NCBI GenBank assembly: GCA_937139405.1
Contig: CAKZPV010000034.1
Span: 186,001-250,000 of the forward strand
Reading direction: 5' to 3'
DNA length: 64,000 nt
Origin: an uncultured Nitrospirota bacterium
GTDB taxonomy: Bacteria > Nitrospirota > Nitrospiria > Nitrospirales > UBA8639
This document shows, one piece after another, positions 4,451 to 28,498 of the stretch. The translations under genes and the position numbers were made by a program. The notes beneath the pieces were generated by a model. That model was not told the origin of the DNA and did not search any database. It saw only the letters and a program-made list of their open reading frames with translations. Numbering within the stretch: position 1 is the stretch's first letter; the number at the start of each line of letters is the position of its first letter.

Positions 4451-5134
4451 TCACATTTTCATCATAGAGAGTCGAGACAAGTCCAACACAATTTCTCCGC
4501 TCCGCTCATCACCAAAGACTGCATCATAGAGACCTTCCTCTTCAGCTTGCACAAGTTCTTCCTCGTCAGCCTCATAGAGAATATCAACACCTAACGGGCC
4601 CAAAGAAAATAACGGATACCGTCGGTCATAAATGAGGCCTGCAGGCGGGATTCCATAGACCGCACGGTAATTACTGAGAATAATATGCAAGCGTCCTTCA
4701 GTGACGTAAAGTCCCCCTGACGTCACTTCTCGCTTCGTGGCGTTCAGGGGATGACTCACATAAAAGGTGACGAGTTCCTGAGGAACCGCCAATTCCAACG
4801 CTTCCAACAATCGAGAAATCAGCAACTCGACTTCTTCTTTGCGAAAAGCTGGCTTCATCTCAGCCGTTCCACTAACCCATCTGAGAGGTGCGACACGATG
4901 CTCTCGCACTCGAAGACCTTCTAACGCTTTCTGCATTTGGCCATGAGAAAGGGTGGCGGGATGCGCATTCCACGTCTGCGGGTGATCTGTCTCGGCCCAG
5001 GGAGAGAATTCTAAACGGACAAAGGCGGTAGGATTTTCATAGACAAGGTACGAATAAAGCGGGGGGGAAGCACAGCCAAAAACCCCTCCAGCAAAAACAA
5101 TAAAAAGAAACCGACACCCCCATTGCTTAGGCAT
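4451..5134 (-). CDS. Predicted lipoprotein of unknown function
   Basis: About 227 residues with a lipoprotein signal peptide (hydrophobic FLFIVFAGG followed by lipobox VFGC), so it is probably membrane anchored. The start was placed at ATG 5134, which overlaps the last 8 bases of the upstream cyclophilin gene and suggests translational coupling; a TTG at 5143 is the alternative. The C-terminal part is acidic (EADEEELVQAEEEGLYD). I recognise no family. Last gene of the minus-strand run that includes the cyclophilin and TatC. Confidence 0.7.
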   Translation of the reverse strand: MPKQWGCRFLFIVFAGGVFGCASPPLYSYLVYENPTAFVRLEFSPWAETDHPQTWNAHPATLSHGQMQKALEGLRVREHRVAPLRWVSGTAEMKPAFRKEEVELLISRLLEALELAVPQELVTFYVSHPLNATKREVTSGGLYVTEGRLHIILSNYRAVYGIPPAGLIYDRRYPLFSLGPLGVDILYEADEEELVQAEEEGLYDAVFGDERSGEIVLDLSRLSMMKM

Positions 5135-5651
5135 TGGCTTCAATAACGGTCAGCTTCATTTCAATGCGCTGCAATGGATTATCATTGCCATCCCGTTTGG
5201 CGTTCACGATGCGATCTGCGATTTCCATCCCACTCACCACTTCACCAAATGCCGTATACTGACCATCTAAGAAATTCGCATCAGCCACACAAATAAAAAA
5301 CTGCGATCCAGCACTATTGGGATCTTGTGCCCTGGCCATAGACACAATCCCTCGTTTATGAGGCGTGTTATTAAATTCAGCATTCACACGATGTCCAGGC
5401 CCACCCGAACCATGACGAGATCGATCGGCGTCTCTACTATTCGGATCGCCGCCTTGAATCATAAATCCCGGAATCACACGATGGAAGGTTGTGCCATCAT
5501 AAAATTTATCGTTGGCTAAGGTTACTAAATTTTTCACATGGTTGAGAGCAAGGTCGGGAAAAAATTTCAACCGAATCTCACCCCACGATTCCTCTTCAAC
5601 TTGAATGGCAATATTCACCCGCGTCTGATTACTCACCACAACATCACTCAT
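5127..5651 (-). CDS. Cyclophilin-type peptidyl-prolyl cis-trans isomerase
   Basis: A 174-residue single-domain cyclophilin that catalyses cis-trans isomerisation of prolyl bonds. Diagnostic motifs are FHRVIPGFMIQGGDP (active-site Arg, Phe, Met and Gln), GSQFFICVAD and LDGQYTAFGEVVSGM. No signal peptide is visible, so it is probably cytoplasmic (PpiB-like). It starts with ATG at 5651, and the next gene overlaps its stop. Confidence 0.93.
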   Translation of the reverse strand: MSDVVVSNQTRVNIAIQVEEESWGEIRLKFFPDLALNHVKNLVTLANDKFYDGTTFHRVIPGFMIQGGDPNSRDADRSRHGSGGPGHRVNAEFNNTPHKRGIVSMARAQDPNSAGSQFFICVADANFLDGQYTAFGEVVSGMEIADRIVNAKRDGNDNPLQRIEMKLTVIEANA

Positions 5652-21174: not shown

Positions 21175-22053
21175 CTAGACATGCGCAACAGCTGCCTTTC
21201 GCAAGTTTTTAGGACGACTTTTCTTACTATTACCATTGTGAATGCCGTCTAGTTCTACACGCAATTGTCGAAGCGCTCCGGAATGCACTCGACAGACTCC
21301 GGATTCAGTGAGACCCAAGCGTCCTCCAATTTCCTTCATCGTCATCCCTACATGATAATAGAGTTGTAAAACTTCTTGCTGACGAGATGACAAGGTGACC
21401 AAGGCAGCTTGTAAGGCCGTCTTCATTTCCGCATCTGCACAGGCAGCAAAGGGATCATGGTGTTCAAGATCAGGCAAGACATCTCGTAGTGTACATCCGT
21501 CTTCACCATATCCCACGGGTTCATCTAGACTCACGAGCCTAGGATCACAAGCTGCAACACCTTCGAGCTCTTCTTGAGGCACTCCTAATGCCTTCGCTAA
21601 TTCTTCAATTGTTGGGGAAGTCCCATTTTTTTGGATATATTCATCAACAATTTGTCGGATTTGCTCTCGACGAGCTCGAACAGATCTTGGAACCCAATCC
21701 ATGGCACGTATTTCATCGAGCATCATGCCCCGAATCCGATACTCTGCAAACGTGCGAAACTTAATATCTCTGGTCGGATCAAATCGTTTCAGGGCACTCA
21801 TTAACCCCATCGTCCCGGCACTCGTCAAATCTTCTACGTCCAAGGAAAAAGGATTCTTAAGAGCCATGGCCCCAGCGATTCGACGTATCATGGGAAGAAA
21901 TTCTCGCAGAAGTGCTGCTAGTTGCTCCTGATCTAGCTGAGAATAATACATGTCTGCAGCTCTGGCTTCTGGAGCCTTAACTGTCAGACATGCAGAATCT
22001 GTAGCCGCAGGTTCTACGGTAATTCCATGAGAATGTTGTCTGTGTTCATCCAT
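21175..22053 (-). CDS. fliA: RNA polymerase sigma factor, FliA/sigma-28 family
   Basis: About 292 residues with sigma region 2 (DVEDLTSAGTMGLMSALKRF, then KFRTFAEYRIRGMMLDEI), the FliA-typical MDWVPRSVRARR, region 3 (TIEELAKALGVPQEELE) and region 4 (LSSRQQEVLQLYY, GLTESGVCRVHSGAL). FliA-type factors direct transcription of late flagellar and motility genes. ATG 22053 was chosen because AAAGG lies seven bases upstream; ATG 22068 sits right behind a terminator and lacks one. No flagellar genes are nearby. The leader holds a cyclic di-GMP riboswitch, so its level probably follows the motile/sessile switch. Confidence 0.92.
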   Translation of the reverse strand: MDEHRQHSHGITVEPAATDSACLTVKAPEARAADMYYSQLDQEQLAALLREFLPMIRRIAGAMALKNPFSLDVEDLTSAGTMGLMSALKRFDPTRDIKFRTFAEYRIRGMMLDEIRAMDWVPRSVRARREQIRQIVDEYIQKNGTSPTIEELAKALGVPQEELEGVAACDPRLVSLDEPVGYGEDGCTLRDVLPDLEHHDPFAACADAEMKTALQAALVTLSSRQQEVLQLYYHVGMTMKEIGGRLGLTESGVCRVHSGALRQLRVELDGIHNGNSKKSRPKNLRKAAVAHV

Positions 22054-22076
22054 AATCTGGCCTTTCATTTTTGACC

Positions 22077-22106
22077 AAAAAAACGCCCAACTCCGAGGAA
22101 TGGGCG
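22077..22106 (-). terminator. Intrinsic terminator in the sigma-factor leader
   Basis: Read on the minus strand, CGCCCA pairs with TGGGCG around an 11-base loop and is followed by seven T. It lies between the riboswitch aptamer and the sigma-factor start, the position expected of an expression platform that stops transcription before the coding region. Confidence 0.85.
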
Positions 22107-22127
22107 CATGAACGAACGTCAGACAAC

Positions 22128-22229
22128 GTACAGTTCGGTAACCAGACTAACCCTGAACATCTTACGGTTCATGGTCTCTTGGCTTTGCGCCCTACCCTCG
22201 CGGATAGTTTGCCCTTGTCACCTGTTCAA
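22128..22229 (-). promoter_or_regulatory. GEMM-I cyclic di-GMP riboswitch
   Basis: Read on the minus strand this leader matches the GEMM-I consensus. It has AAGGGCAAAC, a P2 stem CTATCC/GGGTAG closed by the GNRA tetraloop GCGA (22192-22207), GGCGCAAAGCC (22181-22191), a P3 arm and the closing GGTTACCGAAC (22133-22143). The GGGC segment keeps the G that I recall as typical for cyclic di-GMP rather than cGAMP binding. A terminator and a sigma-28-type gene follow directly. Not the subtype GEMM-II. Confidence 0.9.
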
Positions 22230-22493
22230 TTTTTTATTCTACAGAAAACACCTCTTAGCTCTCTTTCTCATTGATTAATCATTCCTACCTACTGGTTCAT
22301 CTGTCACAAGCTTTTTAAGGCATTCTCTCTTGTGATTCTACTCCAGTGCTGATGTTATCGGGACAGGCCTTTTCGGAATTAAGGAAAAAACTTGACGGAG
22401 CGAGAGAAAAACATAGAAATTCATAAATCGTCATATATAAAAAGACAATTTCCTATTTTCATAGGAGCATAATATCGAAAATTTCAGTCAATT

Positions 22494-25552: not shown

Positions 25553-28498
25553 ATGACCACAAAATTTTTCCAGACCTTATTTTTCGGACATTCTCCACAA
25601 TTCAATATCATTGCAATTGAAAATGAGAATGAAGACTGGGGTGCAGGACAAAACCAAGACGACAAACTTCCACCAGCCCCGGCGAATGTTCGTGCCATCC
25701 CTGATCATGCCAAGACCACAATAACCTGGGATCCCGTTCCTGAGGCCCTCTATTATAATTTGTATTTTGTGACCACTAAAGGCGTACAAATCAAACCGAA
25801 TGAGCTTGCACGACCCATTGCATCCCCGGAAGATTTTATTCCCACAGTAGACATTAAAAAAGACACCGCAAACTGTATTGAAGGAGTGGTCTCTCCCTAT
25901 GAACACAACGATTTAGCGAATAATCTTTGTTATCACTATGCCATTACTGTGGTGACAGAAGGAGGAGAAAGCCCAATTTCTGAAGAAGTGATGTCTATTC
26001 CTTCACCGTATCTTTCCGTCATGCAATTTGGATGTGAAGGCGTTGATGAGGGAGAATTTAAATCACCAACCGGCATTGCGGTTGATAAAGACGGCAACAT
26101 CTATGTTGGCGATACGGATAACCATTCAATTCAAAAATTTGATAAATTTGGGAAATTTGTTGCGCGGTGGGGCGAAGAGCCCGATTCAATTGAAGGGAGC
26201 TTTTATTACCCACGAGGGATTGGCACATCACCAGATGGGGACGTTTACGTTGCAGATAGCGGAAACAATCGAATTCAAAAATTTGACTCCGAGGGAAATA
26301 TTATCAATGCCTGGGGAAAGTTTGGTTTTGCTTGGCAAGGGGCGGAAGCCGGAAAGTTTGATGTTCCTTGGGGAATCACGACCGACTCACAAGGCAACTT
26401 ATTCGTTTCAGATACCAGCAATGCTCGGGTACAGAAATTCCTGCCAGATGGCACTCCCGTTCTGACCTGGGGACGCGATGGCGGATACGATGGTGCGTTC
26501 TTTTATCCACGTGGTCTTGCCGTAGATTTTGTGGGCAATACATATGTGGCCGATGAAGGGAATCACCGCATTCAAAAATTCGATTCCCGCGGAAACTTCC
26601 TTTTGAAATGGGGAAAGGAAGGGAACGCGCCCGGTCAATTTAAATCTCCTTGGGGAGTGGCCTGTGACCCATTAGGCTATATCTATGTAGTGGATAGCGG
26701 AAACCATCGTGTCCAAAAATTCGAACCTAACGGTACCTATCTTTGCTCTTGGGGAAACCGCGGACTCACAGAGGGCCAACTAAATTTCCCTTCCGGCATT
26801 GCCATCGATAAAGAAGGATATGTGTATGTCATCGATAGTGGAAATCACCGATTAACAAAGTTTGCGCCAACGGAAGAGGAATTGAAACGAGGCAAACAGG
26901 AAAAACCAGAAGCAGCTGACCTCTCTGCACCCATTAATCTTGCCGTTAAGCCAGGCGATACTGAAAACATTCTGAGTTGGTTAGAAATCCCGGGTGCCGT
27001 TAGCTATAACCTGTATTTCAGTACAGATCCTAATCTCACCATTGATACGTCTACAAAAATTGAGGGGGTTTCTACTCCTTATATTCACAATGGATTAACG
27101 AACGACACTCCATATTTTTATGCCATAACTGCCGTGACAGAAGATGAAGCAGAAAGCGCGCTTTCTGACGAACAAACGGCAATTCCGGTCCTCATCGACA
27201 TTGCTGCTCCTCAAAACCCCGATATCGTTCTAAACCATGGCTCATATATGACCAATAGCCCAGATATGGTAGCGACGATCTCAGCGAAAGATGTGGATAG
27301 TGGCGTAGCAGCATATTTCATATCTGAAAATCCAATGACGCCAAGTGCAACAATGCCAGGGTGGGTTGAAATTGAACCAGAACAAAAATTTGGTGCGACC
27401 ATCCCATTCACGACTTCTCCTGGAGACGGGACAAAAACAGCATATGTGTGGTTCAAAGACGCCAATAACAATGTCTCGGTGCCAGCAAGTGCAAGTATTC
27501 TTCTTAATACCTCAGGCTACATCTGTGTGACTAAATGGGGAAAAGCTGGGCGTGGAGCATCACTCCTTCACGGTGGCGAATTTATTAGTCCAATGTATGG
27601 AATGTCCATTGATCGACAAGGATCAATATTTGTCGTTGATAACGGGAACAACCGTGTTCAAAAATTTGATCGCAATGGTAATTTCATTCTCTTATGGGGT
27701 AACTTCGGTTCATCGAATGGCAATTTCAATAACCCAACAGGCATTGCATGCGATGCGAATGGGGACCTCTATGTAGCGGATACTAATAATCACCGCATTC
27801 AAAAATTCGATGGAAAACTTGGTCATTACTTGATGAAATTAGGTTCGCGCGGCAATGGTGAAGGCCAATTTAATGCCCCATGGGGAGTGGCTGTAGATCG
27901 TGTACGTGGGTATCTATACGTCGTCGATAGTGCGAATTTCCGCGTACAAAAGTTTGATGAAACCGGTGAATTCATCATGCAATGGGGAAGTTTTGGCAAT
28001 GGTGATGGACAATTTTATTTCGCACGAGGTCTGGCAGTCGATCAAACAGACGGAACAGTTTATGTTGTTGATATGGGTAATCATCGGGTACAAAAATTTG
28101 ATACGAGCTCTAACGTATTACCTCAGTTGCTCACGAAATGGGGAGGCGGCCTTGGGCCCGGCCATGCTAGTAGTGCTCGAGCGCAAGAACCTGGTCAATT
28201 TCGTTCACCGTGGGGCATCGCTATTGATGAAGCCGGCGATATTTTTGTCAGTGATACAGGAAATCAACGCTTACAAAAATTTGATCGAGACGGAAATTTC
28301 ATCACGCAATGGGGCGGATTCGGGACGAATCAGGGTCAATTTAACTTCCCTTATGGATTAGGAGTCGATAGCCGAAGCCACGTCTTTGTGGTCGATAGTG
28401 GCAATATGCGTGTCCAAGAGTTCATGCCAGCAGAAGAAGCCGAAGACCATTTTCAAGAAGAAGAGGCCATGGCATTTATTCCTGAAGCAGCAGAGTAA
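25553..28498 (+). CDS. Large NHL-repeat beta-propeller protein with fibronectin type III domains
   Basis: A 981-residue protein. A fibronectin type III-like domain (about residues 43-145) precedes a six-unit NHL propeller (about 155-440). A second Fn3-like domain (about 455-550), an Ig-like stretch (about 555-650) and a second NHL propeller (about 660-960) follow. Each NHL unit carries GIAVDKDGNIYVGDT-like and NHRIQKF-like segments. Such propellers bind proteins or polysaccharides. No N-terminal signal peptide is visible from ATG 25553, though repeats of this type are often extracellular. Possible scaffold or adhesion role, not demonstrated. Confidence 0.85.
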   Translation: MTTKFFQTLFFGHSPQFNIIAIENENEDWGAGQNQDDKLPPAPANVRAIPDHAKTTITWDPVPEALYYNLYFVTTKGVQIKPNELARPIASPEDFIPTVDIKKDTANCIEGVVSPYEHNDLANNLCYHYAITVVTEGGESPISEEVMSIPSPYLSVMQFGCEGVDEGEFKSPTGIAVDKDGNIYVGDTDNHSIQKFDKFGKFVARWGEEPDSIEGSFYYPRGIGTSPDGDVYVADSGNNRIQKFDSEGNIINAWGKFGFAWQGAEAGKFDVPWGITTDSQGNLFVSDTSNARVQKFLPDGTPVLTWGRDGGYDGAFFYPRGLAVDFVGNTYVADEGNHRIQKFDSRGNFLLKWGKEGNAPGQFKSPWGVACDPLGYIYVVDSGNHRVQKFEPNGTYLCSWGNRGLTEGQLNFPSGIAIDKEGYVYVIDSGNHRLTKFAPTEEELKRGKQEKPEAADLSAPINLAVKPGDTENILSWLEIPGAVSYNLYFSTDPNLTIDTSTKIEGVSTPYIHNGLTNDTPYFYAITAVTEDEAESALSDEQTAIPVLIDIAAPQNPDIVLNHGSYMTNSPDMVATISAKDVDSGVAAYFISENPMTPSATMPGWVEIEPEQKFGATIPFTTSPGDGTKTAYVWFKDANNNVSVPASASILLNTSGYICVTKWGKAGRGASLLHGGEFISPMYGMSIDRQGSIFVVDNGNNRVQKFDRNGNFILLWGNFGSSNGNFNNPTGIACDANGDLYVADTNNHRIQKFDGKLGHYLMKLGSRGNGEGQFNAPWGVAVDRVRGYLYVVDSANFRVQKFDETGEFIMQWGSFGNGDGQFYFARGLAVDQTDGTVYVVDMGNHRVQKFDTSSNVLPQLLTKWGGGLGPGHASSARAQEPGQFRSPWGIAIDEAGDIFVSDTGNQRLQKFDRDGNFITQWGGFGTNQGQFNFPYGLGVDSRSHVFVVDSGNMRVQEFMPAEEAEDHFQEEEAMAFIPEAAE

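Follow-up and report, generated by a model that had tools for sequence, protein, structure and literature searches.

The window is a stretch of 64,000 nucleotides (G000:C34:186001-250000) from a Nitrospirales genome of 4.46 Mb, which we compared with related Nitrospirales MAGs. On its minus strand lies a c-di-GMP-I (GEMM-I) riboswitch aptamer, followed by an intrinsic terminator and the gene for a sigma factor that we call sigma2. The features of the locus are, in the order of transcription:

22234-22254, minus strand: promoter-like block, consisting of GAGGT (22254-22250), 8 bases and TAGAATAA (22241-22234), from an alignment of 19 leaders of the genus
22133-22222, minus strand: c-di-GMP-I (GEMM-I) riboswitch aptamer, by the RF01051 and RF03167 covariance models
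22222-22218 with 22141-22137, minus strand: aptamer helix P1
22214-22207, minus strand: GGGCAAAC, a piece of the GEMM-I pattern
22207-22202 with 22197-22192, minus strand: aptamer helix P2, with the GNRA loop GCGA at 22201-22198
22186-22192, minus strand: predicted antiterminator strand GGGCGCA, inside the aptamer core and ending on A47, pairing with 22108-22102
From 22176-22173 with 22152-22149, minus strand: aptamer helix P3
22102-22108, minus strand: switching strand TGCGCCC, whose alternative partners are the aptamer core or, via GCGCCC, the terminator 3' arm
22077-22107, minus strand: intrinsic terminator, by folding, with the stem GCGCCCA / TGGGCGT and seven T (22083-22077)
22061-22066, minus strand: Shine-Dalgarno-like GAAAGG, 7 bases before the start codon, from the sequence and the genus alignment
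21175-22053, minus strand: sigma2, 292 aa, FliA/WhiG family with regions 2, 3 and 4, by TIGR02479 and the Pfam models for these regions

The conserved start of sigma2 is the ATG at 22053, and the start at 22068 chosen by the ORF tool is not conserved in the genus alignment. Upstream of the aptamer the block consensus GAGGT-N8-TMGRATAA is strongly conserved and fits the sigma-70 and the sigma-28 consensus alike only poorly. We dropped this block as a regulon marker or a sign of autoregulation: its single other match in the genome lies inside a gene region, so autoregulation is not supported. Sequestration of the start codon was rejected as well. In g9 and the window's genus the linker GTTCGTTCAT (22117-22108, minus strand) is complementary to ATGRACGAAC at the sigma2 start (22053-22044, minus strand). 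In most leaders, though, shuffled sequences do as well as this duplex, which other genera lack. The lptF-lptG genes upstream of sigma2 and a convergent SleB-like hydrolase gene downstream are retained in several genera and, as the initial annotation stated, no flagellar genes were seen among the neighbouring ORFs (14-32 kb of the window). Elsewhere in the window (25553-28498, plus strand) a large NHL-repeat protein scores 381.8 bits with the ScyF model (cut-off 350), a name that is unexpected in this organism.

The aptamer and its ligand pocket

The initial annotation read a full GEMM-I pattern with a GCGA tetraloop on P2 from the minus strand, and we located all of the pieces it named, including GCAAAGCC, P3 and GGTTACCGA. 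The search that it proposed with the RF01051 covariance model came out well above threshold, with 61.9 bits at a cut-off of 35 (E 1.8e-11 in a whole-genome search). In cmscan the c-di-GMP-I-GGC model RF03167 was just passed (59.8 bits, cut-off 59), and its name is the one retained by the clan rule, which drops overlapping clan matches, though RF01051 gives more bits. The resemblance to RF03167 lies in this score just above the cut-off. The difference lies in the pocket: the RF03167 consensus, from which we read the meaning of "GGC", has GCGAA where the window has GCAAA, and the G that marks the variant stands where the window aptamer carries A47. By the numbering of the 3IRW contact list (PMC7288161), A47 is at 22186 and G20 at 22213 (the middle G of AGGGC). 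Both are the canonical pocket bases, and we therefore file the RNA as an ordinary c-di-GMP-I aptamer, with c-di-GMP as its predicted ligand.

The pocket is maintained among the 26 sigma leaders of our alignment A1. A47 is invariant, and G20 is found in the window and in 23 of the 25 others, the two aptamers that lost it having A (G027) or C (G031). Helices of the aptamer are paired in 97.9% of cells, and the P2 loop is a GNRA tetraloop in all 26 leaders (GCGA, GTGA, GTAA, GAAA, GCAA or GAGA). No pair within the aptamer had changed on both sides, which counts neither way because the aptamer is nearly invariant across these leaders.

An A at position 20 shifts GEMM-I specificity towards cGAMP. 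We consider it very unlikely that the window RNA answers to another or a broader ligand, be it 3',3'-cGAMP or, as the top Rfam name c-di-GMP-I-GGC could imply, the ligand that a variant class recognises. Besides that name, the position-20 changes in G027 and G031 point this way, as do further GEMM-I aptamers of the same genome that carry A20 (L002 at C8:137192 and L005 at C32:206704). Against these stand the G20 of the window and of nearly all aligned leaders, where the A of the cGAMP (GEMM-Ib) type occurs solely in G027, the A47 of every leader in place of the G of the GGC consensus, and the higher score of RF01051. The genome encodes seven GEMM-I RNAs above the cut-off and at least seven GGDEF proteins, so that c-di-GMP is expected to be made. 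Other members of this RNA set (L001, L002 and L003) precede genes for fibronectin-III-like secreted proteins and a Flp/Tad-type pilin gene.

Terminator, with predicted antiterminator and direction of switching

The terminator behind the aptamer, already claimed in the initial annotation, was missed by a simple scan because its loop is longer than 8 bases, but was detected by folding. Covariation bears it out: the stem is paired in 96.2% of cells over the 26 leaders, and both sides have changed at four of its seven pairs. The antiterminator strand GGGCGCA is likewise paired with the 5' arm of the terminator (22108-22102) in 96.2% of cells, a value that falls to 27-58% (maximum 57.7%) when the strands are slid by one to three columns. 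Four of the five g5 genomes have A-U in place of a G-C pair at columns 34/135 of the alignment. Two of the genomes with A-U, G024 and G034, retain the G in the terminator's own 3' arm, and the change therefore suits pairing with the aptamer better than pairing in the terminator. This compensatory change, essentially one evolutionary event, is suggestive rather than decisive support for the antiterminator. For 21 of the 26 leaders, no more than 1.3% of shuffled arms attain the duplex energy of the real sequence. Leaders G031 and G032 fit the scheme poorly, and the terminator was not seen in G026.

Folding energies, calculated at 37 C for the RNA alone, with no magnesium, polymerase or ligand, favour first one structure and then the other. 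When the transcript stops short of the 3' arm, 18 of 19 leaders have the antiterminator as their minimum free energy fold or no more than 2.7 kcal/mol above it. With the 3' arm added, most of the 19 favour the terminator, by up to 8.3 kcal/mol. In the window leader, the antiterminator equals the best fold before the 3' arm (-43.1 kcal/mol for both), and the terminator prevails at full length (-53.5 against -48.4 kcal/mol). In silico the leader thus holds what an OFF switch consists of, a terminator and an antiterminator that cannot form at the same time, the latter drawing on strands of the aptamer.

Two of the bases taken up by the antiterminator, C46 and A47, contact c-di-GMP (PMC7288161), and ligand binding and read-through should therefore exclude each other. 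We think it probable, on the strength of this modelled pairing, that the leader is a transcriptional OFF riboswitch that would shut the second sigma-28 gene at high c-di-GMP. Transcription would start at a position just 5' of the aptamer. At low c-di-GMP, the emerging UGCGCCC would pair with GGGCGCA of the unoccupied aptamer core, breaking the ligand pocket and preventing the terminator, and the polymerase would read into the sigma2 gene. At high c-di-GMP, the ligand would stabilise P1, P2 and P3 together with the pocket including A47; the UGCGCCC strand would then be free for its own 3' arm, and the resulting terminator would stop transcription before the gene.

The opposite sign, an ON switch with more read-through and more sigma factor once c-di-GMP is bound, seems to us quite unlikely. 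GEMM-I-type riboswitches of both signs are known (PMC9262584), and an antiterminator-like fold remains the best one at full length in three of the 19 leaders (G017, G028 and G024). An antiterminator built from the ligand pocket itself should nevertheless be excluded by bound ligand; moreover, the terminator does not overlap P1, and no anti-antiterminator was seen.

The closest counterpart to the proposed OFF switch is Cd1 (Cdi-1-3) of Clostridioides difficile, also a GEMM-I aptamer that acts as an OFF switch via intrinsic termination and controls a sigma-28 gene (PMC6366702, PMC9262584). In that species sigD belongs to a flagellar operon of 23 kb, the flgB operon, which Cd1 controls (PMC6366702), whereas the sigma paralog of the window stands by itself, at a distance from flagellar genes. 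Cd1 can form its antiterminator only by giving up the capacity to bind ligand (PMC9262584), and uses for this its aptamer-stabilising A strand. The predicted pairing in the window instead occupies the core of the ligand pocket including A47, which would make binding and read-through exclusive base by base.

A sigma-28 paralog linked to the riboswitch

Orthologs of sigma2 occur in 31 of the 49 genomes of the family, spread over seven of its ten genera. In 30 of these 31 the gene is immediately preceded by a GEMM-I aptamer (for G012 the upstream region was read from locus L148). The 30 belong to six genera, the window's own among them, and the linkage is far beyond chance. The exception is G025, whose ortholog stands behind an lptG-like gene with no aptamer (L147, G025:C100) and sits on the longest branch of the sigma tree (L096, 1.69, from a contig of equal length); here the missing switch and the rapid evolution may be connected. 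Genus g4 gave no sigma-28-type match, and members of f3 (Nitrospira proper, judging by names) mostly have one FliA and no such paralog. Our results support the earlier proposal that c-di-GMP could set a regulon through a riboswitch before a sigma gene: aptamer, terminator and FliA-family gene are all confirmed, and the arrangement is conserved across genera. The idea itself is not unprecedented, given Cd1 and sigD (PMC6366702).

The same linkage speaks against the aptamer as a bystander. Were sigma2 made mainly from a promoter downstream of the aptamer, the latter could be a free RNA like the merRNA of Bdellovibrio, a GEMM RNA already known to lack a target gene (PMC3627812), and the strong terminator between aptamer and gene would fit. 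The T run and the start codon are, however, just 23 bases apart, the conserved promoter-like block stands right 5' of the aptamer, and aptamer and sigma gene are kept together in nearly all genomes with sigma2. We regard a bystander aptamer as highly improbable.

The assignment of the gene behind the leader to the FliA family holds, and can be refined: sigma2 is a paralog of the flagellar FliA. It scores 205.4 bits with TIGR02479 (curated cut-off 189.6) and stays below the cut-off of the WhiG equivalog NF004935 (178.2 against 343). The nearest solved structures by sequence are WhiG 6pfv and FliA 6pmi. A separate gene (C33:187023) encodes the flagellar FliA. Its operon, with names read from the sequences rather than from a family search, runs FliR-FlhB-FlhA-FlhF-FlhG-FliA and is adjoined by chemotaxis genes. 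In a maximum likelihood tree all 32 sigma2 rows fall on one side of a branch with 100/100 support, recovered in 200 of 200 bootstrap trees. This branch and the separate operon gene rule out sigma2 as the ortholog of flagellar FliA. In one genome, G028 (RBC_NOB5; L037/L089), we observed an apparent frameshift near the 3' end of sigma2, possibly an assembly error.

Regions 2.3-2.4 of sigma2 closely match FliA, with KFRT(F/Y)AE(Y/F)RIRG(A/M)MLDEIRAMDWVPRS. The region 4.2 helix reads TESG(V/I)CR(V/I)H in every intact sigma2, as opposed to TESR(V/I)(S/C)Q(I/L)H in FliA. Near-identity in the former and alteration in the latter suggest that sigma2, if active as a sigma factor as its sequence predicts, has a -10 preference similar to that of FliA and differs in its -35 preference.

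High c-di-GMP repressing motility is a common logic. It would suit a scheme in which sigma2 is a functional copy of the flagellar sigma and the RNA a flagellar brake like Cd1, as would the almost identical regions 2.3-2.4 and the presence of flagellin in 20 of the 21 members of the window's genus. We nonetheless find this scheme unlikely, since FliA has its own gene in the flagellar and chemotaxis operon, sigma2 forms a clade of its own, and the changes from TESR to TESG and from Q to R are fixed in its -35 helix. The near-complete genome G027 argues in the same direction: it keeps sigma2, yields no FliA match, and its single FlgM is of the second type described below.

A second FlgM and the candidate regulon

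Two FlgM genes are present in 20 of the 21 near-complete genomes with sigma2. In the sister family f3, each of the 31 near-complete genomes with FliA only has exactly one, and none of the 31 has the second FlgM, a comparison confounded by the family split. FlgM1 lies in the flagellar cluster beside FlgK- and FlgL-like genes (L274). Next to FlgM2 (C3:91566-91727) come a PilZ gene of the YcgR type and, after it, a gene resembling that of DAHP synthase, a neighbourhood shared by g1, g3, g5, g8 and g9. We infer that sigma2 may be held by FlgM2.

The promoter of the genus flagellin has the form TCAAGTTT-N11-GACGATAA. The pattern TAAAN14-16GCCGATA alone was not enriched in the genome (6 matches against 13 for the reversed control). 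A strict pattern, AAGYTTTN9-11GNCGATA, gave 5 genome matches against 0 for the reversed control; it was derived from the flagellin promoter and the site on C32, and was built after three of the matches had been seen. One of the five belongs to a flagellin, and two lie directly upstream of other GEMM aptamers. Together with the second FlgM, these provide leads to the regulon:

G000:C32:206669-206692 (L005, L237): sigma-28-type promoter before the aptamer at 206704 and CheY-like response regulators
G000:C4:69841-69864 (L007, L234): sigma-28-type promoter before the aptamer at 69792
G000:C3, about 90.6-91.9 kb (L269:5519-5851 and 4627-5289, both minus strand): FlgM2 region

Genomes G007, G005 and G006 have kept the C32 promoter, and the user of either promoter could be FliA or sigma2.

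With sigma2 probably restrained by its own FlgM-like anti-sigma as well as controlled by the riboswitch, c-di-GMP would shut a whole regulon through one RNA. In a wider scheme, which we put forward tentatively as possible rather than likely, these Nitrospirales would carry a duplicated sigma-28/FlgM pair, of which one copy is flagellar and the other is a c-di-GMP-gated regulon switch with several c-di-GMP inputs, namely the sigma2 riboswitch, the YcgR/PilZ gene beside FlgM2 and the GEMM RNAs on sigma-28-type promoters. If true, the duplicated module would be a layered RNA-sigma circuit that lies outside flagellar control.

Two further systems bear comparison. In Actinobacteria, RsiG with two c-di-GMP blocks WhiG (PMC8325347; structure 6pfv, the closest solved structure to sigma2 by sequence). 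There too c-di-GMP blocks a FliA/WhiG-family sigma, but on the protein, via an anti-sigma armed with c-di-GMP, whereas the Nitrospirales switch would act on the mRNA. Bdellovibrio combines sigma-28-type promoters and an abundant GEMM RNA in the same life-phase programme, with FliA extending beyond flagella (PMC3627812); unlike the sigma2 leader, its merRNA lacks a conserved target gene, and the sigma gene is not under its control. In our searches of the open-licence literature, neither a riboswitch dedicated to a solitary sigma-28 paralog nor the Nitrospirales module turned up, which is weak evidence that the arrangement is new.

The locus would be a third independent case of c-di-GMP control over a FliA/WhiG sigma, after Cd1-sigD and RsiG-WhiG of Streptomyces. 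One RNA appears to wire a second messenger to a dedicated sigma factor, in an arrangement conserved over several genera of an order of nitrifiers, and this opens the regulon question to direct tests in bacteria that matter for the environment and whose change between attached and free life has received little study. Overall, these results indicate that in a group of Nitrospirales one small molecule probably turns off a set of genes through one RNA.
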